In this document: one piece after another, positions 1,128 to 22,857 of the stretch
Numbering within the stretch: position 1 is the stretch's first letter
How the letters are laid out: every line of letters begins with the position of its first letter
Source of the DNA: a virus
DNA length: 25,987 nucleotides
Virus record (IMG/VR): IMGVR_UViG_3300025437_000843
Span: 1-25,987 of that record
Direction: 5' to 3' (one strand)
Made by a program: the position numbers and the translations under genes
Notes under the pieces: model-generated
Told to the model about the DNA's origin: nothing
What the model saw: only the letters and a program-made list of their open reading frames with translations
Databases searched by the model: none

Positions 1128-3788
1128 ATGAGTTATATTGACGCATTGTTTGATCGCGAGCATGATCGCATTCACGTGGTAGAACGTGTCAATGGCGAAC
1201 GGGTCTATCAAGAGTACCCAGCCAATTATGTATTCTACTACGATGATCCACGTGGTAAGTTCCAGACCATCTATGGAACACCAGTCACAAGATTTGCCAC
1301 ACGCAACGGCAAAGAATTCCACAAAGAACAACGTATTAATTCAGGCAAGCGCCTATGGGAGTCAGACATTAACCCTATCTTCCGTTGCTTGGAAGAAAAT
1401 TATCTAGGCGCCCAATCACCAAAACTACAAACAGCCTTTTTCGATATTGAGGTCGACTTTGACCCTGAACGTGGTTTTTCAAAACCTGAAGATCCATTCA
1501 ATGCCATTACTGCTATTTCGGTCTATCTAGACTGGATGGAAAAAATGGTAACCCTGGTTATTCCGCCCAAGAGCTACTCGTGGGATACCGCTGAAGAAAT
1601 TTGTCGGCAGTACGAAAACTGCTATCTGTTTGAACGTGAAGAAGACCTGCTCAACACATTCCTTGACTTGATTGAAGATGCCGATATCTTGTCGGGTTGG
1701 AACTCAGAAGGCTTTGATATTCCCTATACCACCATGCGTATCAATCGTGTACTATCAAAAGACGACACACGCAGACTATGCCTGTGGGGCCAATATCCCA
1801 AGCAACGTACCTTTGAACGCTTTGGTGCTGAGAACCTAACCTTTGACCTGATTGGTCGTGTACACATGGACTATATGCAACTGTATCGCAAGTACACATA
1901 CGAAGAGCGACACAGCTACAGCTTGGATGCCATCGGCGAATACGAGTTGGATGAACGCAAAACACAATACGAAGGCACATTAGATCAACTATACAACCGA
2001 GACTTTCCCAAGTTTATCGACTATAACAGACAGGATACCATGTTGCTGGTCAAACTGGACAGGAAACTGCGTTTCTTGGATCTGGCCAACGAACTGGCAC
2101 ACGACAACACAGTATTGCTACCTACCACAATGGGTGCAGTAGCAGTTACTGAACAAGCTATTATCAATGAAGCACATAGTCGTAACATGGTAGTACCTAA
2201 CAGGAGAAGCAGAGATGATCACGGTGAAACGCAAGCAGCAGGTGCCTATGTTGCTTTCCCCAAAAGAGGCATGCACGAATACATTGGAGCAATTGACATT
2301 AACTCGCTCTACCCCTCAGCGATCCGTGCTCTTAACATGGGGCCAGAAACAATCGTCGGGCAACTAAGAACTACCATGACTGACCACTACATCCGAGAAA
2401 AGATCAGTGGTGGATCAAGTTTTGCTGATGCCTGGGAAAACATGTTTGGTACATTAGAGTATCAAGCGGTCATGAACATGGAACCAGGTACAGAAATTAC
2501 CTTAGACTGGGCCGATGGAACTGAGGATGTTATGAGTGCCAAGGATGTCTGGCGCTTGGTATTTGACTCAAACCAACCTTGGACCCTTAGTGCCAATGGA
2601 ACTATATTTAGATTTGATATCAAGGGTATTATCCCGGGCTTATTGGAGAGATGGTATGCCGAACGTAAAGAAATGCAAGCTAAAAAGAAAACCGCAACAT
2701 CTAAGGAAGATGAAGCGTTCTGGGACAAAAGGCAACTTGTTAAAAAAATTAACCTTAACTCACTTTACGGCGCGATCCTTAACCCGGGCTGTCGCTTCTT
2801 TGACCAACGTATCGGTCAATCGACTACGCTCACCGGTCGTATCATTGCGAAACACATGGATGCACACGTCAACGAAGCAATCACGGGCGAATACAATCAT
2901 ACCGGTGAAGCCATCATCTACGGGGACACGGACTCGGTCTATTTCTCAGCCTGGCCGCAAATCAAAGAGGAAGTAGCCGCAGGTCGTATGGAGTGGAACA
3001 GAGAAATCTGTGTACAGTTATACGATACTATTGCCGAAAGTGTAAATGAATCATTTCCTGCGTTTATGGAACGTGCTTGTCATTGCCCAAGAGACATGGG
3101 TGCTATTATCAAGGGCGGTCGCGAAATGGTTGCTTCAAAGGGCTTGTTTATCAAGAAAAAACGCTATGCTGTACTGATTTACGACATGGAAGGTGTACGC
3201 TTGGACACACACGGCAAGCCAGGCAAGGTCAAGGCCATGGGCCTGGATCTCAAGCGTTCGGATACTCCCAAGGTTGTACAGGATTTCCTAAGCAGTATCT
3301 TGTTGGATGTGCTGACCGGCAAGGAACGTGAACACATTATTGCCAAGGTCAAGGAGTTCAAGATCGCCTTTGCCGACAGACCGGCCTGGGAAAAAGGTAC
3401 TCCCAAACGTGTCAACAACTTGACCAAGTACACAGCCGAAGAAGCACGTCTTGGTAAAGCCAACATGCCCGGACATGTTCGTGCCGCAATGAACTGGAAT
3501 AGATTGAAAAAGATGCACGGTGACAACTATTCAACTGCCATTGTGGACGGTATGAAAACCATTGTGTGCAAGCTAAAGGACAATCCCCTGGGACTCACCA
3601 GTGTGGGTTACCCAACAGATGAAACACATATTCCTGCCTGGTTCAAAGAGTTACCGTTTGATGACTCCAGTATGGAATCAACCATTGTGGATCAAAAGGT
3701 AGAAAACTTGTTGGGTGTACTAGATTGGCGAATAGCCGAATCCACTGACATCAAAACAACCTTTGACGATCTGTTTACCTGGGAATAG
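1128..3788 (+). CDS. 43: T4-like family B DNA polymerase (gp43)
   Basis: Replicative polymerase with proofreading exonuclease, 886 residues against 898 in T4 gp43, so probably complete. Exonuclease motifs: Exo I FDIEVDF with D106 and E108; Exo II WNSEGFDIPY with N192 and D197; Exo III YNRQD further on. Polymerase motifs: motif A DINSLYPS with D390; motif B KKINLNSLYG from K539; motif C YGDTDS with D600 and D602; then a KKRY motif. All catalytic acidic residues are present. ATG 1128 is preceded by AGGAG (1119-1123). It should work with the clamp encoded at 4777. The regA and clamp-loader genes (62, 44) that separate 43 and 45 in T4 are absent; only a methyltransferase gene lies between them here. 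Confidence 0.97.
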   Translation: MSYIDALFDREHDRIHVVERVNGERVYQEYPANYVFYYDDPRGKFQTIYGTPVTRFATRNGKEFHKEQRINSGKRLWESDINPIFRCLEENYLGAQSPKLQTAFFDIEVDFDPERGFSKPEDPFNAITAISVYLDWMEKMVTLVIPPKSYSWDTAEEICRQYENCYLFEREEDLLNTFLDLIEDADILSGWNSEGFDIPYTTMRINRVLSKDDTRRLCLWGQYPKQRTFERFGAENLTFDLIGRVHMDYMQLYRKYTYEERHSYSLDAIGEYELDERKTQYEGTLDQLYNRDFPKFIDYNRQDTMLLVKLDRKLRFLDLANELAHDNTVLLPTTMGAVAVTEQAIINEAHSRNMVVPNRRSRDDHGETQAAGAYVAFPKRGMHEYIGAIDINSLYPSAIRALNMGPETIVGQLRTTMTDHYIREKISGGSSFADAWENMFGTLEYQAVMNMEPGTEITLDWADGTEDVMSAKDVWRLVFDSNQPWTLSANGTIFRFDIKGIIPGLLERWYAERKEMQAKKKTATSKEDEAFWDKRQLVKKINLNSLYGAILNPGCRFFDQRIGQSTTLTGRIIAKHMDAHVNEAITGEYNHTGEAIIYGDTDSVYFSAWPQIKEEVAAGRMEWNREICVQLYDTIAESVNESFPAFMERACHCPRDMGAIIKGGREMVASKGLFIKKKRYAVLIYDMEGVRLDTHGKPGKVKAMGLDLKRSDTPKVVQDFLSSILLDVLTGKEREHIIAKVKEFKIAFADRPAWEKGTPKRVNNLTKYTAEEARLGKANMPGHVRAAMNWNRLKKMHGDNYSTAIVDGMKTIVCKLKDNPLGLTSVGYPTDETHIPAWFKELPFDDSSMESTIVDQKVENLLGVLDWRIAESTDIKTTFDDLFTWE

Positions 3789-3790
3789 TC

Positions 3791-4729
3791 ATGGCTCTGT
3801 ATGAACTAGTATCTTTGAGAAAACATCTACTGGAAACTCTGGATACTGAGCCAGTGGAGAAAGAACTGGCAAAATTAATTGACAATATTCAAAGCCTGAC
3901 CATCAAGGTAAATGGTATTGATGAACAAAATTTAAAATTTATCAATGACTTGAACCAGTACTACAATCAAATACTTGATCAAATCAAAGCAACGGACCCT
4001 AAATTACAGGCGCATTTGGCAACTCTCAATGACCAAATTGATGCGATCACACATCGGTTGTTTGCCAACAATTATGATCTGGAAGAAAATACCGGCGGTG
4101 TCGAGCACATAAGAAACAATCGACGAATTAGTGTTCGCCCAGACATTGAGGATTACATAAAACATCGTATCATGTTGCATACCAGCTGGCGCTACCCCGC
4201 ATTGGAAATTGGGTGTAGAGACGGAGAATGGACACAATATATGATTTCTAGTGACCCCTTGTACCTGATAGATTCGCACAAGGAATTTTTAACTGCGGCA
4301 ACTGCAAATTTCACTCCAGAATTTCAACGCAGAGTACGCCTGTACAATTTGGTCGATCACGACCTCACAGTATTGCCGGCCAATCAATTTGGCCTGGTGT
4401 TCAGCTGGGGATATTTTAACTATGTTGGCCTCGACACCATGAAACACTATCTAAAACAAATTTATAGTCTGTTGAGACCCGGTGGCACATTCTTTTTCAG
4501 TTACAACGACGGCGATACTCCTGCTGGAGCCGGAATGGCCGAGTGCTTTGCACAGACCTATATGCCAAAAGGCATGTTGCTGGCCTTGAGTGAAAGCATT
4601 GGGTTTGAATTGGAAACTGATTCATTTTTTGAACCAAACATAAGTTCCTTAGAATTACGTAAACCTGGCGTACTTGAAACAAATAAACTTCACCAGGTAA
4701 TGGGCGAAATAAAATTTATTAATGTTTGA
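3791..4729 (+). CDS. SAM-dependent methyltransferase with N-terminal coiled coil
   Basis: The 312-residue product has two parts. Residues 1 to about 95 are heptad-rich and likely form a coiled coil. From about residue 130 comes a class I Rossmann methyltransferase: motif I LEIGCRDGEW (E139, G141, G145), the acidic end of strand 2 at D161 in YLIDSH, and the post-motif LRPGGTFFF at 228-236. The substrate is unknown; the C-terminal part shows no base-methylase motif such as DPPY, so a glycan, protein or small molecule is as likely as DNA. It starts 2 bases after the polymerase stop without a clear Shine-Dalgarno, so coupling is likely. Its stop codon lies inside the -35 region of the clamp promoter. 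Confidence 0.8.
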   Translation: MALYELVSLRKHLLETLDTEPVEKELAKLIDNIQSLTIKVNGIDEQNLKFINDLNQYYNQILDQIKATDPKLQAHLATLNDQIDAITHRLFANNYDLEENTGGVEHIRNNRRISVRPDIEDYIKHRIMLHTSWRYPALEIGCRDGEWTQYMISSDPLYLIDSHKEFLTAATANFTPEFQRRVRLYNLVDHDLTVLPANQFGLVFSWGYFNYVGLDTMKHYLKQIYSLLRPGGTFFFSYNDGDTPAGAGMAECFAQTYMPKGMLLALSESIGFELETDSFFEPNISSLELRKPGVLETNKLHQVMGEIKFINV

Positions 4730-4754
4730 CTTTTTCTAAATACTCATCTACAAT
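4726..4754 (+). promoter_or_regulatory. Sigma70-type promoter of the sliding clamp gene
   Basis: TTGACT (4726-4731), 17-base spacer, TACAAT (4749-4754): 10 of 12 consensus positions. The -35 overlaps the stop codon of the methyltransferase. Transcription would start near 4761, giving a 16-base leader that contains the CGGAG ribosome-binding site (4766-4770). A CTAAATA string (4736-4742), resembling a T4-type late element, sits in the spacer. Confidence 0.7.
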
Positions 4755-4776
4755 TAACATATTAACGGAGAAAACT

Positions 4777-5511
4777 ATGCGTGATTACTTATTAGATATT
4801 GTACAACACACTTATGGCCTGGGTGTTATCAACATGATCAAGGTTACTGGTACCGAAGACACAACCAGTATCAATGCCTTTGACCAACAGACCAAAACTG
4901 TTGTGTTGAATGCGGAATTTAAAAAGGCACTTCCTGACTTTATTGGTACTTTTGGTATGCCCAACCTGGATCGACTAAACACTATTCTTAATCTTCCAGT
5001 CTACAAAGAAGATGCAACAATTACAGTCAGTACACAAAAAGAAGAAGATGGTACTGAAGTTCCAAGCGGTGTAACTTTTGTCAACAAAGACGGCGACTTT
5101 AAAAACAACTATCGCTTTATGAGTACCGCAGTGATCAATGATCAACTCAAGAATGTCAAAATGAAACAGGTCAAGTGGGGTGTAGAAATTGTACCTACTG
5201 CGGCCAGTATTCAAAAATTAAAGTTTCAAACACAGGCACATTCAGATGCCACAGCATTCAGCAGTAAAACAGAAGGTGGCGAACTGAAGTTTTTCTTTGG
5301 TGATGCCAGCAGTCATGCCGGTTCGTTTACATTTGCTACTACCAGCGGTACATTGTCCAAACAACTATACTGGCCAGTGGCAGTAGTAAACAGCATTTTG
5401 AGCTTGCCTGGTGACAAAACATTCAAGATCTCCGACGAAGGTGTTGCTGAAATTACGGTCGATTCCGGTCTTGCCCTTTACAAATACATGTTGCCAGCAC
5501 AGACAAAGTGA
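4777..5511 (+). CDS. 45: DNA polymerase sliding clamp (gp45-like)
   Basis: Homotrimeric processivity clamp that tethers polymerase to DNA and, in T4, also activates late transcription. From ATG 4777 the product is 244 residues, close to T4 gp45 (228). Recognition is by overall pattern: an N-terminal NILNLPVYKEDA-type segment, repeated beta-rich halves, and a C-terminus ending in YMLPAQTK. The upstream in-frame ATG at 4726 would lie inside the promoter and the preceding gene. ATG 4777 has CGGAG seven bases upstream and follows the promoter, so it is preferred. The stop overlaps the GTG start of the sulfotransferase gene (GTGA). Confidence 0.87.
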   Translation: MRDYLLDIVQHTYGLGVINMIKVTGTEDTTSINAFDQQTKTVVLNAEFKKALPDFIGTFGMPNLDRLNTILNLPVYKEDATITVSTQKEEDGTEVPSGVTFVNKDGDFKNNYRFMSTAVINDQLKNVKMKQVKWGVEIVPTAASIQKLKFQTQAHSDATAFSSKTEGGELKFFFGDASSHAGSFTFATTSGTLSKQLYWPVAVVNSILSLPGDKTFKISDEGVAEITVDSGLALYKYMLPAQTK

Positions 5512-6134
5512 TTGTAGACGCAGGGTTTTTAACCACTTGGAAAAACAAAGGCCATCTGTTTGGCCAATGCATGAGTCACCCCGACGGTGATCTCATGTAT
5601 GTTAACATTCCCAAGAACGCCAGCTCATGGACCAAGCCCAACCTAATAGATCTTGGTTGGGAGTTTTATAACTATCACACAGATCAGTTGGACAAACATG
5701 CACTTGTAGTCTTGCGTGATCCTGTAGAACGTTGGCTCAGTGGTATTGCTGAATACTTGACTCTGTATCATCCAACTCTTGCCATTGACTCAATGGAAAC
5801 CTTAGATATTATTTTTGATCGTGTGTGCTTTGATGATCATACCGAACAACAGATAAAATTCATACACGGCCTTGATACTGACTGTTGTACATTCTTTAGA
5901 TGTGATTCTTACTATAGAGAAGACTTTAGTACATTTTTAGATGATCACGGAATACCCAATCGTTACCACAAGTACGAGTTTCAACATGTGAGTGAATCCA
6001 GCCCAGATCGCCGAAGATTTCAAGAAATTTTTCGCACCCAGTTAGAAAAATCTAAATATCTCACACAGATTAAAAACTACTACGAAGAAGATTACAGATT
6101 AATGGATTCGGTGGAATACTATGGGTCAAGATAA
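5508..6134 (+). CDS. Sulfotransferase-like protein (PAPS-dependent)
   Basis: The 208-residue product begins at GTG 5508, overlapping the clamp stop. It carries a 5'-phosphosulfate-binding loop-like motif VNIPKNASS (residues 32-40) and a 3'-phosphate-binding motif LRDPVERWLSG (69-79), the two PAPS-binding signatures of the sulfotransferase fold. It is short for the family but covers both. The acceptor cannot be read from the sequence; a host surface glycan, the phage's own glycans or a small molecule are possible. The neighbouring glycosyltransferases and epimerase further on favour glycan chemistry, by inference. The gene overlaps the next one by 14 bases. Confidence 0.72.
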   Translation: MIVDAGFLTTWKNKGHLFGQCMSHPDGDLMYVNIPKNASSWTKPNLIDLGWEFYNYHTDQLDKHALVVLRDPVERWLSGIAEYLTLYHPTLAIDSMETLDIIFDRVCFDDHTEQQIKFIHGLDTDCCTFFRCDSYYREDFSTFLDDHGIPNRYHKYEFQHVSESSPDRRRFQEIFRTQLEKSKYLTQIKNYYEEDYRLMDSVEYYGSR

Positions 6135-7146
6135 ACTTGATTTGAGATTGTTTAACACCACGTGGATGCAGTCGCATGTGCGTGGACAAAACTATTCAGG
6201 TCCACCTATTACACATCACTGTACACAACCTTGGAAAACTCTGGTTGTCAATTTGGAAGGTGATTGTTTTGTATGTCTATGTGAAGCACACTTGCCTATT
6301 CCAGTTGGAGCAATAACCGACTTTGACGCTATAGAAGATGTATGGACCAGCGACGCTGCACAGGTATTACAACAGACTATTTTAGATAAAACCTTTACTT
6401 ATTGTGCTGTAACTGATTGTGGTATCATTGAACGAGACATTATATCCGGGCATCATATCAACATCAACATAGATGAAAGTTGTAATCTTGCTTGTCCTAC
6501 CTGCCGACGTGGCATGATTAATCACACTAGTGGTCCGTTATTTGAAAAAAAACTGGCTCAGGTCAATCACTTTGTAAAGTTAATTAACAAGTTTGATCAG
6601 CCAACGAATTTGGTCATGTCGGGCAATGGTGATCCATTGGCCAGTTTGATCATGAGACCACTATTTTTAAACTGGAACCCATTGCCCAATCACAGCATTG
6701 AATTGGCTACCAATGGCCTGTTGATGAAAAAATTGTTGCCCAACAGCCCAATACTGCCAAATATCAAAACTTTTAAAATCAGCGTGGACGCTGGAACCAA
6801 AGAAATATATGAACAAGTCAGACGCCCGGGTAAATTTTCAATCATTAAAGAAAATCTGGATTGGTTGGCCATAAACCGCAGGCCGGGCGTTGCTGTAAAT
6901 TTAATGTTTTGTATCAGTGTTGCAAATGTAGGAGACATGATAAATTTTGCCAATATGTGCAAAGACTACGGATTTGCTGCAAAATATACCCATGTAACTG
7001 ATTGGAATACATTTGACAACTTCGCCAGCCAGGATGTTATAATTAACACTGATAATCCCTTGCATCCGCTGGCAGTGGAACAATTACAAACCATTGCAAC
7101 AATGCCGCATGTAGATTTGTCACCAACACTAAAAAGATTACTATGA
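6121..7146 (+). CDS. Radical SAM enzyme with N-terminal SPASM-like cysteine region
   Basis: The 341-residue protein has a radical SAM core with CNLACPTC (C121, C125, C128; CX3CX2C), preceded by the beta-strand HININID. It continues with a GNGDPL motif and SVDAGTKEIYEQVR, typical of SPASM/twitch enzymes. Unusually, the Cys-rich auxiliary part lies before the core: C34, C49, C52, C54, C95 and C100, with a QPWKTLVVNLEGDCFVCLC pattern that looks like a SPASM domain (normally C-terminal). No C-terminal cysteine cluster is seen. The gene directly precedes the DpdA-like gene with an ATGA overlap, so a role in peptide or deazaguanine chemistry is conceivable but unproven. Confidence 0.78.
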   Translation: MGQDKLDLRLFNTTWMQSHVRGQNYSGPPITHHCTQPWKTLVVNLEGDCFVCLCEAHLPIPVGAITDFDAIEDVWTSDAAQVLQQTILDKTFTYCAVTDCGIIERDIISGHHININIDESCNLACPTCRRGMINHTSGPLFEKKLAQVNHFVKLINKFDQPTNLVMSGNGDPLASLIMRPLFLNWNPLPNHSIELATNGLLMKKLLPNSPILPNIKTFKISVDAGTKEIYEQVRRPGKFSIIKENLDWLAINRRPGVAVNLMFCISVANVGDMINFANMCKDYGFAAKYTHVTDWNTFDNFASQDVIINTDNPLHPLAVEQLQTIATMPHVDLSPTLKRLL

Positions 7147-8684
7147 CCCAAGACAACCTAACCGCTAAACAGAATGACTATGCTGTGTTTCTTCCAGCCA
7201 TCTCTGGGTTTTATGCTACCTTTATAGGTAAACAACGCAACAATAATTATGTAGATCCAGCACGTATGCCAGCTGGGTTGACAGATATGGAAATGATGAA
7301 TTGGTTAAATCCTACCAAGGCATTGTTCCCTTATAAGTGGTCACTTTACTCCGGTGGCCACGCAAACCTTGACCTGAACAAACAGGACTGGTCAGAGGAT
7401 ATGGTACGCAATCGAGATCCCAACACACTAATGCTAGGCGACTCTGGTGGATTCCAGATTGCCAAAGGATTATGGGAAGGCGATTGGAAAGCCCATTCAG
7501 GGTGCCCGAAGGCCCAGAAAAAACGTGAACAAGTTTTGGCTTGGCTGGACGGCATTGCTGATTACGGTATGATTCTTGATATTCCGACCTGGGTAGTGCA
7601 TGATCCACATGCCAGCGCCAAGTGTCAGATTACCACGCACCAAGAAGCTGTAGATGCTACCAAGTACAACAATGACTACTTTATGAAACACCGCAAGGGT
7701 GTAAAAAATGGTGGTGCCCGGTTCTTAAACGTGTTACAAGGTGCCAATCATAAAGAAGCAGAAGATTGGTATCAGACAATGAAACACTATTGTGATCCTG
7801 CGGTTTATCCCGACACACACTTTGATGGCTGGGCCATGGGCGGACAGAACATGTGTGACGTACACTTGATCTTGCGTAGACTAGTGGCTCTGCGCTACGA
7901 TAATCTATTACAGGAAGGTGTTCATGATTGGATGCACTTCTTGGGCACAAGCAAACTAGAATGGGCAGTCTTGCTCACAGTTATACAACGTGCTATTAGG
8001 AAATATGTTAATCCTAGTTTTACAGTCTCGTTTGATTGTGCCAGCCCGTTTTTAGCCACAGCCAATGGGCAGGTATATCATCACATTGACTTGCCCGACG
8101 GCGGCAAATGGTCCTATCGCATGAGTCCCATTGTGGATGATAAAAAATACGCAACCGACACCAGACCCTTTAGAGATGCTGTGCTACAGGATAAACTGAT
8201 ACACCACTTTGACGAAAGCCCACTCAGTGCCCTGTGCCAAATGAAAGATATTTGTGTATACAAGCCCGGCGATGTCAATAAAAATGGCAAAGAAGGCAAG
8301 ACATCGTGGGATAGTTTCAGCTACGCACTCCTAATGGGACATAATGTTTGGATGCACATTGAATCAGTACAACGTGCCAATAGAGAATTTGATAGTGGCA
8401 AGCACCCAGCTATGATGCGTCGTAGTGAAGGTGACTATGCCTTCTTTGAAGACATTGTAGAAGCTATATTTTCTGCACCCACTCGAGCCGATGCCGAAGC
8501 CATTATTGAATACTATGATGAATACTGGATGGAAATTGTGGGTACTCGCGGATTCAAGGGCAAGAAAACACGCAATAGCCTGACCAACTTTAACGCACTA
8601 TTTGAGTTTGAAGATGGTAGCGAAGACGAAGCAGAACCCGAACCAGAATTTGATGAATCACGACTTGACCAACTGGAGGCCTAA
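7143..8684 (+). CDS. dpdA: DpdA-like tRNA-guanine transglycosylase homologue (7-deazaguanine insertion into DNA)
   Basis: A 513-residue TIM-barrel transglycosylase. TGT signatures in order: LMLGDSGGFQ with D100 (matching the base-binding Asp of bacterial TGT), ILDIPTW (D146), FLNVLQG (194-200), GWAMGG (229-234), HFLGTS (265-270), and VSFDCASP with D298, aligned with the nucleophile in the FDCVMP motif of bacterial TGT. The C-terminal zinc site of canonical Tgt (CxCxxC) is not seen; instead there is a strongly acidic tail. FolE, QueD and QueE in the same window support DpdA, the phage enzyme that swaps guanine for a 7-deazaguanine in DNA, over a tRNA enzyme. ATG 7143 overlaps the radical SAM stop. 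The DpdA subfamily is not assigned. Confidence 0.82.
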   Translation: MTQDNLTAKQNDYAVFLPAISGFYATFIGKQRNNNYVDPARMPAGLTDMEMMNWLNPTKALFPYKWSLYSGGHANLDLNKQDWSEDMVRNRDPNTLMLGDSGGFQIAKGLWEGDWKAHSGCPKAQKKREQVLAWLDGIADYGMILDIPTWVVHDPHASAKCQITTHQEAVDATKYNNDYFMKHRKGVKNGGARFLNVLQGANHKEAEDWYQTMKHYCDPAVYPDTHFDGWAMGGQNMCDVHLILRRLVALRYDNLLQEGVHDWMHFLGTSKLEWAVLLTVIQRAIRKYVNPSFTVSFDCASPFLATANGQVYHHIDLPDGGKWSYRMSPIVDDKKYATDTRPFRDAVLQDKLIHHFDESPLSALCQMKDICVYKPGDVNKNGKEGKTSWDSFSYALLMGHNVWMHIESVQRANREFDSGKHPAMMRRSEGDYAFFEDIVEAIFSAPTRADAEAIIEYYDEYWMEIVGTRGFKGKKTRNSLTNFNALFEFEDGSEDEAEPEPEFDESRLDQLEA

Positions 8685-13082: not shown

Positions 13083-13287
13083 AAAAATTCCAGCAAAGAA
13101 AACCAAATCTAAATATCCTATAGTTACCGTAGGTAGCCATAGTGTTAGAACTGAATACGAAAACGGCCAGGTTGACTTTGTTGTAGATGATGCTAAACTA
13201 TATGCAGATGTCATGGCGGCATTAGATGAATACGCCAATAACAAAGAAACTCCTAAAAAATCAACCCGTACTAAAAAAACTAAATGA
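13057..13287 (+). CDS. Small lysine-rich protein, unknown function
   Basis: 76 residues from ATG 13057 with AGGAAAAA upstream. Both ends are Lys-rich (KKPAVEKIPAKKTKSK and KKSTRTKKTK), flanking a short central fold with YPIVTVGSHSVRTEY and a helix DDAKLYADVMAALDEY. The basic tails suggest nucleic-acid contact, but this is inference. It overlaps the upstream gene by 26 bases and the epimerase ATG by four (ATGA). Confidence 0.6.
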   Translation: MATKKPAVEKIPAKKTKSKYPIVTVGSHSVRTEYENGQVDFVVDDAKLYADVMAALDEYANNKETPKKSTRTKKTK

Positions 13288-14249
13288 AAAAAATTGTAGT
13301 AACAGGTGGGTGTGGCTACATTGGTAGCCACGTCGCACGAGCATTCAAACAGGCAGGTGATCAAGTATTGATTGTCGATCGTGTTCAACGTGATCATACC
13401 TTACAAAACATAGATGGCTGGCACATTGGCGATTTTGCCGACGATGCTGGTTTATCTGCTATTTACAATTTTGAGCCTGATGTGATTGTGCATTGTGCCG
13501 GTACTAGCCTGGTAGGACCTAGTATGACCGATCCGGGTGTCTACTACGACAACAATATCAGTAAAACCATAAAATTACTGAACTGGGTCAACAGATTTAC
13601 AAAAAAACCTATCATCATGTTCAGTTCGAGTGCCAGCGTCTATGGCGAACCTGAGGTGTTACCTATTCGAGAAACTGCTCGTGTACAACCTATCAGTCCC
13701 TACGGTCGTACCAAGGCCATGACTGAAACCATACTCAAAGACTTCTGGGGTGCCTATGCCCTGCCCAGTACAATTTTTAGATATTTCAATGCGGCTGGTG
13801 CAGAACCTGTTGCCTTTGACCTTGGCCAAGAACCTGAGGCTACTCATATTGTTGCTCGTATCTTGGAGGCCAGTATCACAGGTCATGTGTTCAGTATCAA
13901 TGGTGAAGACTTTGATACTCCTGACGGCACTTGTATCCGTGACTATGTTCATGTGTGGGATATTGCCCGTGCTCATGTCATGGCCGCTGAACGACACTAC
14001 ACACAGGCTGGTGCTATACAGAGAATTTACAACTTGGGCACCAACCAAGGTGTCAGTAACAAGCAAATTGTAGACTATGTGGCTGAAAAATACGGCTTGA
14101 TTCACGTCAACTACGGACACAGACGCATGGGCGATCCGGCACAACTGGTAGCTGATGCTGAGTTGGTCGGAGCGGAACTGGGATGGCAACCTGAGTATAG
14201 TGATATTGCCACCATCATTGATTCAGCTTACAAGTGGTACACTCAATGA
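13284..14249 (+). CDS. NAD-dependent sugar epimerase (UDP-glucose 4-epimerase, GalE-like)
   Basis: A 321-residue extended short-chain dehydrogenase. The NAD-binding glycine motif GGCGYIG is at 8-14, the acidic strand-2 end at D32, and the MFSSSASVYG active-site strand at 112-121. The catalytic pair is Y140 and K144 (SPYGRTK), followed by FRYFNAAGAEP, a strong GalE signature. Length is slightly below bacterial GalE (about 338). It would interconvert UDP-glucose and UDP-galactose, or the N-acetyl forms, supplying nucleotide sugars for the glycosyltransferases in this window. It is coupled downstream to the aminotransferase-like gene (ATGA). Confidence 0.88.
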   Translation: MKKIVVTGGCGYIGSHVARAFKQAGDQVLIVDRVQRDHTLQNIDGWHIGDFADDAGLSAIYNFEPDVIVHCAGTSLVGPSMTDPGVYYDNNISKTIKLLNWVNRFTKKPIIMFSSSASVYGEPEVLPIRETARVQPISPYGRTKAMTETILKDFWGAYALPSTIFRYFNAAGAEPVAFDLGQEPEATHIVARILEASITGHVFSINGEDFDTPDGTCIRDYVHVWDIARAHVMAAERHYTQAGAIQRIYNLGTNQGVSNKQIVDYVAEKYGLIHVNYGHRRMGDPAQLVADAELVGAELGWQPEYSDIATIIDSAYKWYTQ

Positions 14250-14830
14250 CATTTCAACCCCTGTTTGACTTTGAGGCCGCGCTAGCTGAATATACCGGTG
14301 CACCATATGTGGTAGTAACCGATGGGTGTACTCATGCTATAGAACTTTGCTTTAGATTAGACCGCATTACCTACACAGAATTCTCAGCCTTTACGTATCT
14401 AAGTATTCCACAGCTGATGCAGGAACTTGGCGTCAGGTATGAACTAAAGACTGACTACTGGCAATCAGTGGGCCAATATCAGTTTGGGTACACCAATATC
14501 TGGGACAGCGCACTACTGCTGAAACCCAACATGTATCGTGCCGGACACAAGCAATGCCTGAGTTTTGGGCATGGTAAGCCACTCAGCATCGGCAAGGCCG
14601 GTGCCATCCTGCTGGATTCAGAATGGGAATATGAAGAACTGAGTCGCATGCGATCAGATGGTCGCGATCTACGTATCTCACCCTGGCAGGCGCAGGAGAC
14701 CTTTGGCGAAGGCTATCACTACTGCCCTACCTTAGAAACATGTCAATTGGGTATAGAAAAATTACCCCTGGTCAACCCAGAACCTAAATATCATGAATAC
14801 CCAGATTTAAGAAAATTGACATTCAAATGA
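14246..14830 (+). CDS. Half-size DegT/DnrJ-like sugar aminotransferase homologue
   Basis: 194 residues from ATG 14246, overlapping the epimerase stop. DegT-like landmarks: LAEYTGAPYVVVTDGCTHAI (13-32), which resembles the cofactor-phosphate region, a WDSA at 86-89 where the PLP-ring Asp is expected, and SFGHGKPLSIGKAGAIL with K111 at the position of the PLP-binding lysine. Family members usually have 360-400 residues. Here the interval between the N-terminal helix and the Asp is shortened and the C-terminal domain is almost missing. There is no sign of a frameshift and the start and stop are both coupled, so it looks like a compact protein rather than a broken gene. The activity is uncertain. 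Confidence 0.66.
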   Translation: MTFQPLFDFEAALAEYTGAPYVVVTDGCTHAIELCFRLDRITYTEFSAFTYLSIPQLMQELGVRYELKTDYWQSVGQYQFGYTNIWDSALLLKPNMYRAGHKQCLSFGHGKPLSIGKAGAILLDSEWEYEELSRMRSDGRDLRISPWQAQETFGEGYHYCPTLETCQLGIEKLPLVNPEPKYHEYPDLRKLTFK

Positions 14831-15528
14831 AAATCCTAGTAAATGGTCCATCAGTTACTCTAGGCCCCATTTCGTGGCCTGTTCAACTGGAGAAAAAAAT
14901 AGCCTGTGAAATTGTAAATTTTTCTCGAGTTGGCTGTGGAAACAATTACATACACGATTCAACCATACTGGAATTGTCTCAAAGAAAATATGATCTTGTG
15001 GTCATTTCGTGGACCTATTTTTTTCGAAGAGATTTTAGAATCAAAACTCCGGGTGCTGTGCTACATGGTCTGGAACTTGAAGATCCACACCTGCACAAAA
15101 ATCCATATCTTGATAAATTTTGGTTTTTCCTGAGGCACACACATCCGCCCGGTGCCGATGTTTCTACCTATACCGAGGACCTAGAAAGATATAATTCTGC
15201 ACTTGATCTATACAGCACCATGTATTCGGATGAACAAAGATTAGAGGAAACCCTGCTGAATATAATATCTCTGCAGTCAGTATTGAAAAATTTAAATATC
15301 CCTTATGTGTTTACATTCTATAAACCATTATTACATTTGAAAAAACTGCAACACCTGTATGACCAAATTGATTATGATCATGTACATGGTGTACATATTT
15401 GTCATTTGGCCAGACAAAACAACTGGGAAAGAGATCGGCATCCTGATACTCCTGCCCATATTGCCTATGCCGATACACTTTTAGAACATCCTGTTGTAAA
15501 AGATCTATTGACAACTACTTGTATATAA
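14827..15528 (+). CDS. SGNH/GDSL-hydrolase-like protein
   Basis: 233 residues from ATG 14827 (ATGA overlap). The N-terminus ILVNGPSVTLGP corresponds to the block I Ser region, NFSRVGCGNNYI (31-42) to the Gly and Asn oxyanion blocks, LVVISWTYF to the block III strand, and DRHPDTPAHIAYA near the C-terminus to the Asp-x-x-His catalytic pair. Such proteins act as esterases, acetyltransferases or structural relatives on glycans. It ends the epimerase and aminotransferase run. The folE promoter overlaps its last codons. Block I is NGPS rather than GDS, so catalysis is not certain. Confidence 0.58.
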   Translation: MKILVNGPSVTLGPISWPVQLEKKIACEIVNFSRVGCGNNYIHDSTILELSQRKYDLVVISWTYFFRRDFRIKTPGAVLHGLELEDPHLHKNPYLDKFWFFLRHTHPPGADVSTYTEDLERYNSALDLYSTMYSDEQRLEETLLNIISLQSVLKNLNIPYVFTFYKPLLHLKKLQHLYDQIDYDHVHGVHICHLARQNNWERDRHPDTPAHIAYADTLLEHPVVKDLLTTTCI

Positions 15529-15577: not shown

Positions 15578-16378
15578 ATGCCTAAATACGCATCACCAGA
15601 AGAACAACGAATAGCAGATTTACTAGTAGACGAAGCACCATATCACCCAGGATATGAAGACGCCGCAATGAGCATGAGCGATAAAGGTTACAAAGAAGCT
15701 AACCTGGCTGATGCTATTCGTTTTAATATGAAACGAAACAACAAGCGTTTCTGGGCAGGCGACAACATCAGTGAATATGTAGTGGGTCACAGAGATGAAC
15801 TGATTGCAGGTGCGACCAAGGCATTTGAAGGTGTGCTAGATGCATTACTAATTGATCGCGAAAATGATCCCAACAGTCAAGGTACAGCCAAGCGCCTGGC
15901 CAAAATGTATTTCAACGAAATCATGGCAGGTCGGTATGACCCTGCTCCAGATGCAACAAGTTTTCCTAATGAGGTAGATGATGGTTACAAAGGTATGTTG
16001 GTCGTGCGTAGTGAACTTCGTAGTATGTGTAGTCATCACCATCAGCCCGTTGTTGGTGTTGCGTATATTGGAATCATCGCGGCTGATAGACTTATTGGGT
16101 TATCTAAGTATACTCGCATTGCCCAGTGGTGTGCTCGCCGTGGGACTTTGCAAGAAGAGCTGTGCAACGACATAGCACGTGAGATTGGCCTAGCAACAGG
16201 TAGTAAAAATATTGCTGTTTATATCGAAGCCGAACATGGATGCTGTACCAATCGCGGTATCATGGCTGGTAGCTCAATGACTCAAACCACTGTGTTGACT
16301 GGTGCATTTCAAATTGATATGAATACCAAGAAAGAGTTCTTTGACAATATCAAACTGCAAAAGGATCATTCACGATGA
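15578..16378 (+). CDS. folE: GTP cyclohydrolase I (FolE)
   Basis: Converts GTP to 7,8-dihydroneopterin triphosphate, the first step towards 7-deazaguanines and folates. Family motifs: NSQGTAKRLAKMY (99-111), SMCSHHHQP with zinc ligands C151 and H154, GLSKYTRIAQWCARR (174-188), LQEELCNDIA (191-200), and AEHGCCTNRG with H220 and C222 (third zinc ligand). All core residues are present. The product is 266 residues, longer than the E. coli enzyme (222), through an N-terminal extension of roughly 45 residues (HPGYEDAAMSMSDKGYKEANL). CGGAG lies before ATG 15578. QueD and QueE in the window and the DpdA-like gene indicate a deazaguanine rather than folate role. Confidence 0.93.
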   Translation: MPKYASPEEQRIADLLVDEAPYHPGYEDAAMSMSDKGYKEANLADAIRFNMKRNNKRFWAGDNISEYVVGHRDELIAGATKAFEGVLDALLIDRENDPNSQGTAKRLAKMYFNEIMAGRYDPAPDATSFPNEVDDGYKGMLVVRSELRSMCSHHHQPVVGVAYIGIIAADRLIGLSKYTRIAQWCARRGTLQEELCNDIAREIGLATGSKNIAVYIEAEHGCCTNRGIMAGSSMTQTTVLTGAFQIDMNTKKEFFDNIKLQKDHSR

Positions 16379-17213: not shown

Positions 17214-18131
17214 ATGGATAGGATTGAGTACGATTTATCAACTGCAATCGGACTCGGCGGATTGATTGGTTTTTATAGTTTGATTTTATCAACCAAACAG
17301 CCAGCACAAATCAACATACAGCCAGGCTGGACCCTTGTGCATGATATCAAAAGAATTTTTAACATTGCCGATGATCGAGTTGTTATAAATGAGGTACATG
17401 GTCGATCTATTGACAATGCCTTGGTGGATACGCTGGGCGATAATGCAAAATTTTTTAGCAGTTACATCAAAACTGATCAGTTGAATTTGTTTGGGCAAAA
17501 TATGCCGGTACTGACAAGATCAACCATGGCCGGAACCGCATTGTCAAATGGCAAACCGTGCATAGGATTTGCCATTGGTGGTAGTACCGAAATAGCCAGA
17601 TGGAAATATTTGGATCGATTCTCCGGATTAGATCCTGAGATGCTTCCAAAAAAATACCCTTACACAAAACAGCACATTGACAAAATCATTGAATTGTGTA
17701 TAGATAGTGGCTATGATATTGTTACCATTAACTCTGACCGAATCAGTTTAGAACACAAGATACTGTTGTTGAACAATTTATGCGATTGCGTAGTCGGGTA
17801 CGAAGGTGGAATGGCACATCTGGCACATTGTTTAGATATTCCTGTGATCATGTTTCCATGGGAAAATGACCATACAAAACATGCTATGATGATGCATCTT
17901 GATAAAAAAACATATTTTTTAAATTCAGCGGATGAAGTGTTAGGCTGGACTCCAGACATTTTTTTGGAAATCAAAGATCGTTTACATAACAATTTGGGCA
18001 ACAATGAATTTTTAACAGATCAGTTTAAAAATTCAAGCACAGATGAACAAATGAATTATGCTCCCGACGGATTAAGAGATTTTTTAAAAAACAACATTGA
18101 ACAATTAACAATAGGTGGATACAATGAGTAA
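17214..18131 (+). CDS. GT9-like (heptosyltransferase-type) glycosyltransferase
   Basis: 305 residues. The C-terminal half carries the GT9 pattern: KPCIGFAIGG strand, PKKYP.TKQHIDKIIELC helix, YDIVTIN, LLNNLCDCVVGYEGGMAHLAHCL and IPVIMFPW. The motif V-G-x-E-G-G-x-x-H-L-A is close to the sugar-nucleotide loop of ADP-heptose:LPS heptosyltransferases and related GT-B enzymes. The N-terminal part is less conserved, with a Gly-rich AIGLGGLIGFYS start. Its job could be host-like LPS or capsule alteration, or phage glycan synthesis. ATG 17214 lacks a clear Shine-Dalgarno. It overlaps the phosphoribosyltransferase gene by 8 bases. Confidence 0.68.
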   Translation: MDRIEYDLSTAIGLGGLIGFYSLILSTKQPAQINIQPGWTLVHDIKRIFNIADDRVVINEVHGRSIDNALVDTLGDNAKFFSSYIKTDQLNLFGQNMPVLTRSTMAGTALSNGKPCIGFAIGGSTEIARWKYLDRFSGLDPEMLPKKYPYTKQHIDKIIELCIDSGYDIVTINSDRISLEHKILLLNNLCDCVVGYEGGMAHLAHCLDIPVIMFPWENDHTKHAMMMHLDKKTYFLNSADEVLGWTPDIFLEIKDRLHNNLGNNEFLTDQFKNSSTDEQMNYAPDGLRDFLKNNIEQLTIGGYNE

Positions 18132-18663
18132 AGTATATTACAAAGAATCGACGGTACGTGCATGGATACACGACATTATCCGTTCAATGAACGCTGATCA
18201 TTGGCGCCCAGACTACATAGTAGGCCTAACACGTGGCGGCCTGGTACCGGCTGTGATGTTGAGTCACTATTTAGAAGTTCCTATGGAATGTCTTAAAGTA
18301 AGCCTGCGTGACAGTGAATACGGTCCTGAGCACAACTGCTGGATGGCCGAAGATGCTTTTGGCTATACCGGGCCAACTACCGACGGAGATCCTGCTCGCA
18401 GTACTCGTGGCAAAAATATTCTTATTGTAGACGACATCAACGACACCGGTGCCACCCTCAACTGGATTCAAAACGACTGGCGCGAAAGCTGTTTGCCAGC
18501 GGACCCACGTTGGGATACCGTCTGGGGCAACAATGTTCGGGTAGCAGTCATGGTCAATAATCAAGCGTCTGATTTCAAAGCAGTGGACTATTCTGGACTT
18601 GATATCAATAAACTGGAAGACCCTATCTGGTGTGTGTTTCCCTGGGAAGAGTGGTGGCGATAA
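18124..18663 (+). CDS. Phosphoribosyltransferase (type I PRTase)
   Basis: 179 residues from ATG 18124, preceded by AGGTGG (18113-18118). The PRPP-binding loop is clear: ILIVDDINDTGAT, with the two acidic residues and the DTG turn, and the PPi loop is GLTRGGLVPA. The C-terminus ends with WCVFPWEEWWR. This layout resembles hypoxanthine/xanthine-guanine PRTases and phage homologues of Gpt. Purine salvage is the cautious reading, and a 7-deazaguanine substrate is possible given the neighbours. The longer ATG 18115 has a poorer ribosome site. Confidence 0.85.
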   Translation: MSKVYYKESTVRAWIHDIIRSMNADHWRPDYIVGLTRGGLVPAVMLSHYLEVPMECLKVSLRDSEYGPEHNCWMAEDAFGYTGPTTDGDPARSTRGKNILIVDDINDTGATLNWIQNDWRESCLPADPRWDTVWGNNVRVAVMVNNQASDFKAVDYSGLDINKLEDPIWCVFPWEEWWR

Positions 18664-18929: not shown

Positions 18930-19433
18930 ATGGCAAACCAACCCAGACAGTACAAGTACACAAGTACCAAAGAGTATGTAGACGCATTTCCTTGTGCGTA
19001 TCGTCAATGGCGAGCTGACAGTCACTGCAACTTAATTCACGGATATTCATTTAGCATGAAGTTCTATTTTGGCACAGACGACCTGGATGTGCGTAACTGG
19101 GCGGCCGATTACGGTGGACTCAAAGAATTAAAACAAGTGCTAGAAAGTCAGTTTGATCATACTCTATTAGTTTCAGAAGATGATCCTGAACTAGAAACAT
19201 ACAAATTACTACAAGAAAAGAATCTTGCTAAACTAACTATCCTGCCCAAACTGGGTTGCGAAGGCCTGGCAGATCAATTATACCGATACGTCAATGGTGT
19301 GTATATTCCTGACATGTGGGGCACAGCCGAGGCAGATAGACTTTGGTGTTATCGTGTAGAAGTACGTGAAACACAATCAAATATGGCGTTCCGTGAAGGT
19401 CATCGTGAGTGGAATGAGGACTTGTTTGCGTGA
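18930..19433 (+). CDS. queD: 6-carboxy-5,6,7,8-tetrahydropterin synthase (QueD)
   Basis: Second step of the 7-deazaguanine pathway. The 167-residue product (about 120 in E. coli) shows FPCAYRQW (20-27), SHCNLIHGYSF (31-41) with catalytic-type C33 and H37, YGGLKELK (61-68), FDHTLL with D76 and H77, and a late VRET Glu (E147). Two of the three canonical zinc histidines appear as tyrosines (Y24 in CAYR, Y39 in HGYS), where E. coli has AHR and HGH. The rest of the catalytic set is intact, so I still call it QueD. AGGAG precedes ATG 18930, directly after a strong promoter. Its TGA overlaps the GTG start of the MazG-like gene. Confidence 0.87.
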   Translation: MANQPRQYKYTSTKEYVDAFPCAYRQWRADSHCNLIHGYSFSMKFYFGTDDLDVRNWAADYGGLKELKQVLESQFDHTLLVSEDDPELETYKLLQEKNLAKLTILPKLGCEGLADQLYRYVNGVYIPDMWGTAEADRLWCYRVEVRETQSNMAFREGHREWNEDLFA

Positions 19434-19702
19434 GTAAAATAAATGAAATATTGGACATCTTGCAGGAAGAATGTGCCGAAGTTATCCAATCCATTAGCAA
19501 GTGTCGCCGTTTTGGTATGGAAAATAGCCATAAAGATGGTGGTACCCAGCGTGAACACTTGACTCAAGAGCTAGGAGATGTTACACTATTGATAGAATTA
19601 CTCAAGGCCTACGGTGTTTATACGGATCAAGAATTACACCAAGCACAGGTACGCAAGAGTCAAAAATTAACTAAATGGTCGACTGTATATGACTCCGAAT
19701 GA
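19430..19702 (+). CDS. MazG-like nucleotide pyrophosphohydrolase
   Basis: 90 residues from GTG 19430 (GTGA overlap with queD). The MazG metal-binding pattern is present: EECAE (13-17) followed by ELGD (47-50), with the NTP-binding helices between. Short single-domain MazG proteins are common in T4-like and cyanophage genomes and hydrolyse NTPs or related nucleotides. Being between queD and a radical SAM gene it may clear unwanted nucleotides, but that is inference. The length is typical of phage members. Confidence 0.78.
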   Translation: MSKINEILDILQEECAEVIQSISKCRRFGMENSHKDGGTQREHLTQELGDVTLLIELLKAYGVYTDQELHQAQVRKSQKLTKWSTVYDSE

Positions 19703-20537
19703 TGTTAAATGGATCCAAATTGAAGCCAGTTCTAAATGCAATGCCTGGTGTCCCATGTGTAGCAGGAATAAAAACGGCTACGGCCTACGAGACAATCTTG
19801 TTGAAGAAGATGTTCCTACCGAAAAGGTACAGCAAGCGATTGAAAAATTACCAAACCTAGAAATGATCGAGTTTTGCGGCAATCTTGGAGATCCTGTCAT
19901 TGCCAAAAACTTTTTAGAATTAATTGCTGTAGCTAAAACTACCAGAGCCAAAATAAGAATACACACCAATGGCAGTTTACGTACTGAAGAATGGTGGACT
20001 AATTTAGCAAAAGAATTAGCCAATGTAGAACATGACATATGGTTTGGGCTTGATGGCTTAGCTGGAGTACATGAGATTTATCGACAAGGCACTAGTTACC
20101 AAAAAATAATTGATAATGCAACAGCATTTATACAAGCAGGTGGTACAGCGGTTTGGCAATTTATTCCCTATGCACACAACGAACATCAAATCAAAGATTG
20201 TCTAAAATTAAGTCAACGATTGGGATTTAAACGATTTGAATTGGTCAAAGGATTTAGGCGTGATCAACAGGCTCGGCACTACAGAACCGGCGAACCATTT
20301 GCTTTGGATCCTCCAACTACAATTCATCGTGTTATGCGAATGCCTAAACCTAACACGTATGTTGACCCAAATAATTGTATGCACCAATACCAAAGTAGTG
20401 TTTTTATGAACTCAAACGGAAAATTAAATTATTGTTGTTTTTTTGGACGAAAAGGAAGTGTTAACAACGTAGAAGAATTATTGTATAATAAAGTGGACTT
20501 AACCCGCGAAACGTGCATAAAAGAATGTGGATCCTAA
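19689..20537 (+). CDS. Radical SAM enzyme with SPASM/twitch-like C-terminus
   Basis: 282 residues. The N-terminal strand WIQIEASSKCNAWCPMC holds the 4Fe-4S motif (C17, C21, C24; CX3CX2C). It is followed by EFCGNLGDPV (61-70), RIHTNGS (90-96) and WFGLDGL (118-124), typical of the SPASM/twitch subgroup. The C-terminus has further cysteines at C230, C249, C250, C276 and C280 (GKLNYCCFFG and TCIKEC), fitting an auxiliary cluster site. The substrate is unknown. The gene overlaps the MazG-like frame by 14 bases and the queE promoter lies in its last codons, so it is embedded in the deazaguanine block. Confidence 0.82.
   Translation: MTPNDVKWIQIEASSKCNAWCPMCSRNKNGYGLRDNLVEEDVPTEKVQQAIEKLPNLEMIEFCGNLGDPVIAKNFLELIAVAKTTRAKIRIHTNGSLRTEEWWTNLAKELANVEHDIWFGLDGLAGVHEIYRQGTSYQKIIDNATAFIQAGGTAVWQFIPYAHNEHQIKDCLKLSQRLGFKRFELVKGFRRDQQARHYRTGEPFALDPPTTIHRVMRMPKPNTYVDPNNCMHQYQSSVFMNSNGKLNYCCFFGRKGSVNNVEELLYNKVDLTRETCIKECGS
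20461..20489 (+). promoter_or_regulatory. Sigma70-type promoter of queE
   Basis: TTAACA (20461-20466), 17-base spacer, TATAAT (20484-20489, perfect): 11 of 12 consensus positions. It lies within the end of the radical SAM gene. Transcription would start near 20496, giving a leader of about 45 bases. Confidence 0.68.
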
Positions 20538-20540
20538 ATT

Positions 20541-21404
20541 ATGAGTAAAATTAAAGTAAGTGAAATTTTTTATAGTCTCCAAGGCGAAGGTCGCTTTGTT
20601 GGTGTGCCCAGTGTGTTTTTAAGAACATACGGCTGTAACTTTACCTGTGCAGGCTTTGGTTGCCGACCCGGCGAACGGTCTACAGGTGCAGATGAAGTTG
20701 CTAAAAAAATAGAACTATATAAAGACTTTTTAGATCTTCCTTTGGTAGAAACAGGTTGCGATTCATATGCGTCGTGGCATCCTGCGTTCAAACATTTATC
20801 GCCGACATACACCACAGATGAACTTGTGGACAAGATGTTAGCCCTGACTCCCAACAATCGTTGGGTACAAAACAATGGCAATGATGTACATTTGGTAATT
20901 ACCGGCGGTGAACCTTTGTTAGGCTGGCAACGTGCTTACGAAGAATTATTAAGTCATCCTGGCATGGCAGACTTGCGCAACATTACATTCGAAACCAATG
21001 GCACTCAAGAACTGCACGAAGATTTCCGAGATTTCTTAATTGAATGGGCCGGAGAACATGCCGATAGAGAAGTTACATTTTCGGTCAGTGCCAAACTAAG
21101 CGCATCAGGCGAGGCATGGGATGATGCTATCAAACCCAAGGTTGTAAACATTTATCAAACCTATGGGCACACATATCTCAAGTTTGTGGTAGAAACTCAG
21201 GAACATGTAAACGAGGCTGTTCGAGCGGTTGACGCTTTCCGTGCAGGTGGATTCAAAGGATCAGTTTACCTGATGCCACAGGGTGGTGTAGTTGATCCAT
21301 ACGAATCAAACAAAGTAAACATTGCCAACATTTGCTGTACACACGGGTTTAATTATAGTCCACGCCTACATGTAGACTTATGGGGCAACGGCTGGGGCAA
21401 GTAA
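20541..21404 (+). CDS. queE: 7-carboxy-7-deazaguanine synthase (QueE)
   Basis: Radical SAM enzyme that converts 6-carboxytetrahydropterin to CDG. The start EIFYSLQGEGRFVGVPSVF (8-26) is the QueE signature, followed by LRTYGCNFTCAGFGC. Cysteines C32 and C36 keep the CX3C spacing, but the next Cys is C41, giving CX3CX4C instead of the usual CX3CX2C. Later parts are VITGGEPLL, ITFETNGT, SVSAKLS and a C-terminal YLMPQGG, all typical. The product is 287 residues, longer than E. coli QueE (223), with an insert of about 60 residues after the cluster. ATG 20541 has no strong Shine-Dalgarno. The stop overlaps the next ATG (TAATG). Confidence 0.92.
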   Translation: MSKIKVSEIFYSLQGEGRFVGVPSVFLRTYGCNFTCAGFGCRPGERSTGADEVAKKIELYKDFLDLPLVETGCDSYASWHPAFKHLSPTYTTDELVDKMLALTPNNRWVQNNGNDVHLVITGGEPLLGWQRAYEELLSHPGMADLRNITFETNGTQELHEDFRDFLIEWAGEHADREVTFSVSAKLSASGEAWDDAIKPKVVNIYQTYGHTYLKFVVETQEHVNEAVRAVDAFRAGGFKGSVYLMPQGGVVDPYESNKVNIANICCTHGFNYSPRLHVDLWGNGWGK

Positions 21405-22481: not shown

Positions 22482-22857
22482 ATTTAAACGTAAACCCGAA
22501 GTCAAGGTTGAAGAACCAAAGGCCAAGGTATCAAAAAAATCAGCCAAAGATATAGCCACAGAACGAGGCGAACCTTATGTGGCTATTTTGAGTGTGGAAC
22601 TGGACCCAGAAAACATGGGCAATGGTGCATTTGAATTGGATTGGAATGAAAAGTTTATTACCAATCTGGTACGTGCCGGGTATCAAACCAAACCCAATGA
22701 ACCCGAGGATATTATTGTAGATCGTTGGTTTGCTGACATTTGCAAGAATGTTATATCAGAAAACTACGAGCAATGGGAAGCCAATCAACCAATTGAGGCT
22801 CGTCCACGTGTGGTTGATCGTAGGGATCTGGGCAACGGAAAGACCGAAGTAAGTTGA
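22465..22857 (+). CDS. Conserved T4-like phage protein, unknown function
   Basis: 130 residues. ATG 22465 lies 7 bases after TAAGGAG (22451-22457); the in-frame ATG at 22459 is too close to it. The start MGLLDRFKRKPEVK, a Lys/Glu-rich linker, then GEPYVAILSVELDPENMGN and a DRWFADICKNV helix, ending RDLGNGKTEVS, matches a pattern I know from T4-like cyanophage hypothetical proteins. No motif suggests an enzyme. Its TGA overlaps the TTG start of the next gene. Confidence 0.7.
   Translation: MGLLDRFKRKPEVKVEEPKAKVSKKSAKDIATERGEPYVAILSVELDPENMGNGAFELDWNEKFITNLVRAGYQTKPNEPEDIIVDRWFADICKNVISENYEQWEANQPIEARPRVVDRRDLGNGKTEVS

Follow-up and report, generated by a model that had tools for sequence, protein, structure and literature searches.

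A DpdA-like protein of a virus fragment carries a putative sliding-clamp-docking peptide resembling the tail of the phage DNA polymerase

DpdA1 of Enterobacteria phage 9g inserts archaeosine, and dPreQ0 is present in the DNA of phage nt-1 (PMC6884629). A system for the synthesis and incorporation of deazaguanines was credited to Pseudomonas phage PA5oct by Iyer et al. (2021; PMC7824862); 7-deazaguanine goes unmentioned in the papers on MIJ3, Callisto, Paride and PA5oct. The DNA of PA5oct was sized at about 375 kb by pulsed-field gels (PMC3936114), against 286,783 bp in its sequence record, a gap that may possibly reflect the altered mobility of modified DNA, or terminal repeats. Docking on a sliding clamp has been described for other phage proteins: the C-termini of T4 gp43, gp55 and gp33 are alike, exchangeable and bind gp45 (PMC2988020), and the tail of the RB69 polymerase was co-crystallised with the clamp (PMC3012046). 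The T4 alpha-glucosyltransferase modifies phage DNA, as is proposed for the enzyme considered here, and its reported interaction with gp45 led to the suggestion that it acts straight after replication (PMC6024577); unlike this enzyme, it has another fold and chemistry, glucosylating hydroxymethylcytosine. A full-text literature search of partial coverage, which leaves room for an earlier mention, returned no paper linking DpdA with a clamp, and the word "clamp" is absent from Hutinet et al. (2019; PMC6884629). The basic reading as a deazaguanine system is already known via PA5oct, and what is new beyond Iyer et al. (2021) is the putative clamp-docking peptide and the missing QueC.

The window, which is the whole virus fragment of 25,987 bases that was analysed, encodes the DpdA-like protein in ORF 7143-8684 (Table 1). 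Relatives of this protein are encoded in at least 599 IMG/VR contigs, 80 of which were fetched, and the homologues from these contigs share 73-80% full-length identity with it; its N-terminus is also kept in relatives. Among named phages, PA5oct (36% identity over 81% of the query, E 3e-76), Paride, MIJ3 and their kin gave matches at 36% identity, followed by Sinorhizobium phage Phosso (31%) and Vibrio phage 2.275.O (29%), with weak matches in Xanthomonas PhiXhv-type phages; IMG/VR scans for more close kin of the PA5oct and Vibrio 2.275.O proteins found none. The full-length homologues in 80 contigs and the PA5oct match rule out a chance ORF. Searches of Pfam, PHROGs, NCBIfam, PADLOC and PDB sequences with the protein gave no match; the blank Pfam result is not counter-evidence, because the Pfam TGT profile (PF01702) misses known DpdA1 and DpdA2 as well. 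The initial annotation had placed the gene within a replication module, and a family B polymerase, a predicted PCNA-type clamp and a 5'-3' exonuclease are indeed encoded in the window. The clamp gene lies between the polymerase gene and dpdA, has a homologue in 80/80 relatives and stands at most 100 bp upstream of dpdA in 44/83 cases; linkage of dpdA with both polymerase and clamp genes was found in 80/80 relatives. No tRNA gene was found in the window.

Table 1. Coordinates of the features discussed, counted from the first base of the window
Feature	Position	Strand	Remarks
Family B DNA polymerase	1128..3788	+	NCBIfam DNA polymerase II, 4.8e-38; homologue in 80/80 relatives
FDDLF, polymerase C-terminus (TTFDDLFTWE*)	3762..3776	+	Putative clamp-binding motif, same type as FNALFE
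Polymerase tail peptide			IKTTFDDLFTWE
Predicted PCNA-superfamily sliding clamp	4726..5511	+	261 aa; PHROG 12062, unknown function
DpdA-like transglycosylase ORF	7143..8684	+	ATG start, 513 aa, TGT fold, CxCxxC-free
D100 codon, DSGGFQ	7440..7442	+	Invariant in 19 divergent homologues and 40 family members
D146 codon, LDIPT	7578..7580	+	Invariant in 19 divergent homologues
D298 codon, SFDCASP	8034..8036	+	Invariant in 19 divergent homologues
FNALFE, residues 483-488	8589..8606	+	Putative sliding-clamp-binding motif in disordered tail, acidic stretch after
Tail peptide of ORF 7143-8684, putative clamp-binding			TNFNALFEFEDGSED
GTP cyclohydrolase I (FolE)	15578..16378	+	Pfam 2.2e-38; CSHH and HGCCxxRG zinc/catalytic motifs present
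QueD-like 6-carboxytetrahydropterin synthase homologue	18930..19433	+	PHROG 2389, 1.3e-34; altered zinc ligands
QueE radical SAM CDG synthase	20541..21404	+	PHROG 2076, 1.9e-53; 7-carboxy-7-deazaguanine synthase structures matched
5'-3' exonuclease	24276-25268		Replication module of the window

The TGT fold that had been proposed from the letters alone was borne out by modelling. An AlphaFold2 model (pLDDT 78.9, pTM 0.82), for which 40 sequences of the window and the contigs served as input, matched exclusively TGTs in the PDB at E<=0.001 (21/21), and its matches among viral models included the Motura TGT and nt-1 DpdA2, the latter at E 2.8e-8. Overlay on the PDB structures was loose, with an rmsd of 7.5-10.8 and a TM score, by query length, of 0.30-0.41, as is expected at identities of 11-15%. 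A joint alignment of 19 phage homologues was arranged in group A (the window family, PA5oct, Vibrio 2.275.O and Phosso), group B (PhiXhv-15, GR7B, Illi-2, NCTB and Motura) and group C, which is DpdA2 (nt-1, KVP40, pf16, ACP17, X1, BUCT-ZZ01 and Moby). Identity drops to 12-19% among these proteins, and 13 columns are invariant across the three groups, including D100, D146, G200, HxLG and D298. Both aspartates named in the initial annotation, D100 in GDSGGFQ and D298 in FDCASP, are thus present and invariant; we take D100 to be the counterpart of the DSGG aspartate of TGTs, D298 presumably the nucleophile and D146 presumably the base-recognition aspartate, as expected from TGTs. The canonical CxCxxC zinc site, already reported as missing, is absent anywhere in the protein; it is absent from groups A and C and kept in group B and in E. 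coli Tgt. The acidic character given to the tail holds as well, with 13 D/E against 4 K/R in the last 40 residues.

Comparison of profiles placed the window family nearest to the Motura/GR7B group (hhalign 98.7%) and to the nt-1 DpdA2 group (95.5% over 194 columns), against 15.5% for E. coli Tgt and 0.3% for 9g DpdA1, a single sequence with which sensitivity is low. A closest match to tRNA-acting Tgt was therefore not obtained, and the earlier reading of a DNA-acting transglycosylase is supported by the fold, the aspartates, the lack of a zinc site, the remote homology to DpdA2 and the constant company of FolE, QueD-like and QueE proteins. Judged from its sequence, the protein is DpdA-like, a remote kin of DpdA2 yet, by direct similarity, apparently distinct from it, a placement based on the hhalign probabilities and the absent zinc site. 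With DpdA2 (Vibrio phage nt-1, KVP40, Stenotrophomonas phage Moby etc.) it shares the TGT fold, the invariant aspartates, the absence of CxCxxC, an ISYDS/ISFD nucleophile context, FolE/QueD/QueE close by and, for most DpdA2 members, a clamp-type tail motif. It differs in that tblastn between the window protein and nt-1 DpdA2 gave no match in either direction, identity in the joint alignment being 12-15%, in the absence of the QueC that nt-1, KVP40 and Moby possess, and in the acidic tail following the motif, which forms the very C-terminus in DpdA2. The Motura/GR7B/PhiXhv-15-type homologues have the same catalytic set and a QueD-like HGY protein, with queuosine genes in Motura, but they keep the zinc site, and their tails are mostly lysine-rich without an LF motif; searches of the genomes of these group B phages turned up no family B polymerase. 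Retention of the zinc site together with these tail and polymerase features was seen in L084 and L090-L093. The PF02916 clamp profile gives a weak signal even in T4-like genomes and is uninformative on the absence of a clamp in zinc-site phages. DpdA1 of phage 9g, also a phage DNA transglycosylase, adjoins a clamp gene and ends in RLQDLFDE, but it has 317 aa, is accompanied by Gat-QueC and is not significantly similar by profile to the window family. DpdA2 is characterised by the absence of the conserved His196 of the 9g type (PMC6884629), a position at which 9g DpdA gave no reliable residue alignment with the window family. In a search for proteins like DpdA3 and DpdA4, Campylobacter phage CP220 and halovirus HVTV-1 yielded no match to a joint profile, a blank of little weight since 9g DpdA1 also escaped this profile.

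FolE catalyses the first step toward 7-deazaguanines. All three pathway proteins announced for the window (FolE, QueD and QueE) were matched, with the qualification that two of the three zinc histidines are missing from the QueD-like protein. By their motifs, FolE and QueE seem intact, the likely cluster ligands of QueE being C32xxxC36 and C73 (CDSYASW); compared with the usual CxxxCxxC, the third cysteine is shifted to C73, and the cluster loop holds an insert of about 34 residues. The QueD-like protein shows AYRQW and HGY where QueD shows AH and HGH, so that F/Y and HGY stand in the place of zinc histidines. This F/Y and HGY type occurs in the window family, Motura, Xhv15, ACP17 and BUCT-ZZ01, and PA5oct encodes both an HGY-type protein, with one more histidine kept, and a canonical QueD. 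A group with FRQW/AYRQW and SHCxxxHGY comprises the window protein, L091:3318-3764, L084:18072-18536, L095:1066-1542 and L123:5002-5472. Matches to FolE were found in 26/29, to QueE in 23/29 and to QueD-like proteins in 22/29 of the records searched, those without them being mostly short fragments.

QueC was not found in PA5oct (286,783 bp), Phosso (469,473 bp), the 320 kb contig G004 or the window; it was found in Vibrio 2.275.O and PhiXhv-15, and QueF only in Vibrio 2.275.O among the records searched. Weak QueC matches in G004 and G019 were rejected on their sequence motifs, which are those of NadE-like N-type ATP pyrophosphatases. In two relatives, at L103:1012-1773 and L104:1006-1761 (minus strand), a NadE-like N-type ATP pyrophosphatase is encoded one short gene from QueE and gives weak QueC profile matches. 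Since QueC is absent from whole genomes, the inserted base would be 7-carboxy-7-deazaguanine (CDG), or preQ0 via a host QueC, and the product made by the phage itself is most simply CDG; the identity of the base is uncertain because QueC is missing and QueD altered. The possibility of CDG was likewise raised for Bipper, another QueC-less phage (Hutinet et al., 2019; PMC6884629). The window further encodes two radical SAM proteins, at 6121-7146 (between clamp and dpdA) and 19689-20537 (just upstream of QueE), one of which carries a SPASM domain. Interspersed with the pathway genes, at 13284-14830 and 18115-18663, are a GalE-like epimerase, a partial DegT-type aminotransferase and a protein resembling purine phosphoribosyltransferases, and weak DUF6071 similarity, under the curated cut-off, was seen in two proteins, at 14827-15528 and 22854-23597.

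The tail of the DpdA-like protein resembles that of the polymerase of the same phage. Residues 478-503 have pLDDT <50, which predicts disorder, and within this region F483 (97%), L486 (100%) and F487 (100%) are conserved in 72 sequences, against a mean of only 47% for residues 489-505. The motif, counted as F-x-x-[LIMF]-F, occurred in the last 60 aa of 80/85 DpdA tails of the family vs 31/1117 other genes, and in the last 20 aa of 79/83 polymerases vs 17/1117 other genes, counts drawn from related sequences, so that p-values overstate independence. Some of the motif-bearing other genes are fragments of split polymerases, and the split polymerases of L061, L077 and PA5oct also bear a clamp-type motif; the motif is weak or divergent in the DpdA tails of pf16 and Phosso. 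As in gp43, gp55 and gp33, a short hydrophobic-acidic motif near a flexible C-terminus thus resembles the polymerase tail of its own phage. ORF 4726-5511, which may provide the docking partner, is predicted to have a two-repeat PCNA-type clamp fold: its AlphaFold2 model reached pLDDT 90.1, and the 50 PDB matches listed were all PCNA or beta clamps, with E down to 1.4e-10. The sequence pattern suggests that the FNALF tail is a putative clamp-docking peptide like that of the polymerase, and that DNA may be re-coded while it is being copied.

Outside the window family, the motif was examined in 80 contigs encoding DpdA2. A motif such as SLEDLF ends 35/38 distinct DpdA2 tails, vs 12/1348 other genes, and the DpdA and polymerase tails of one genome are alike, as in X1 (SLEELFG/SLESLFG), Moby (SLDDLFG/SLEDLFGW), ACP17 (TLDELFE/SLDDLFE), BUCT-ZZ01 (SLDSFFD/TLDDFFS) and Vibrio 2.275.O (NNNDLFGW/NNTDLFDW). 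The LF or FF type matches in 20/21 same-genome pairs, with p 0.00017 in a permutation test that takes no account of phylogeny. Two genomes with a shortened DpdA2 tail also have a shortened polymerase tail (ILDL and TLDF in L213, LELEF and LLDFG in L239). In a tree from which the tails were left out, the FF type and shortened types are found at more than one position. Within DpdA2, the KVP40/nt-1 group is without the motif, yet 15% of dG is modified in phage 6E351A (PMC12028318), so that clamp docking is not needed in all relatives. Three remote relatives of 9g DpdA1 end in RLF, GLF and GFF, and these ends, like that of 9g DpdA1 itself, recall bacterial beta-clamp motifs (L261-L267).

We consider it probable that ORF 7143-8684 encodes a DNA-guanine transglycosylase that is tethered to the clamp by its tail and modifies phage DNA. 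The fold, the catalytic set, the absence of the zinc site, the pathway neighbours, the clamp fold and the shared, co-varying tail motif are established by computation; activity on DNA, clamp binding, the base inserted and the protection of phage DNA are four steps that we infer. GTP would be converted to CDG by FolE, the QueD-like protein and QueE, and CDG would be used unchanged or converted to preQ0 by host QueC. The F/L-x-x-L/F-F peptide in the flexible tail would bring the enzyme to newly copied DNA by docking on the phage PCNA-type clamp, at the pocket used by the polymerase tail. D298 would then attack C1' of deoxyguanosine, as in the TGT mechanism, D100 would aid the departure of guanine, and a 7-deazaguanine partly held by D146 would take its place, leaving phage DNA poorly cut by restriction enzymes. 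With more reserve, we favour the general reading that phage DNA-guanine transglycosylases (the window family, most DpdA2 and perhaps DpdA1) are clamp clients, whose polymerase-like docking peptide would couple 7-deazaguanine insertion to the replication fork, with CDG or host-finished preQ0 as the base in the window family, as these phages would make CDG without QueC.

The tail motif could also belong to a DNA transglycosylase without binding the clamp, reflecting common descent of the C-terminal tail or another partner. DpdA tails are indeed related by descent, and modification in 6E351A accompanies a motif-less group; against this stand the conservation of the motif inside an otherwise variable disordered tail, its distance from the C-terminus, which differs between the window family and DpdA2, its covariation with the polymerase tail and its rarity in other genes at the same loci, and we regard this explanation as unlikely. 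It is very improbable that the protein is a divergent phage TGT that modifies tRNA and serves queuosine formation and phage translation: the fold is shared with E. coli Tgt, as are the catalytic aspartates, and the queuosine pathway is likewise fed by FolE, QueD and QueE, but E. coli Tgt, which acts on tRNA, has the zinc site CDCYTC that is absent here. The hhalign preference for DpdA2, the linkage with polymerase and clamp in all 80 relatives, the polymerase-like motif and the lack of a tRNA gene in the window also argue against it.

A rather doubtful proposal, compatible with the DNA-transglycosylase explanation, is that the QueD-like protein has another role, for example on CDG, and that the base is neither CDG nor preQ0 but another derivative. 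The recurrence of F/Y and HGY in several phages and the presence of both types in PA5oct speak for it, whereas in most such genomes this protein is the sole QueD relative found, which fits plain QueD function, and the conserved SHC beside HGY may be a rebuilt metal site.

The window dpdA family is carried by many environmental giant phages, in which the enzyme probably swaps guanine of their own DNA for a 7-deazaguanine. Being abundant in environmental virus data and missed by Pfam, PHROGs, NCBIfam and PADLOC, this family suggests that many phages with modified DNA have probably been overlooked; its relatives PA5oct, Paride and MIJ3 are culturable. Docking by the tail, if true, would direct the enzyme to DNA under phage replication, amid host DNA and tRNA, and modification could then come soon after synthesis, ahead of restriction enzymes.
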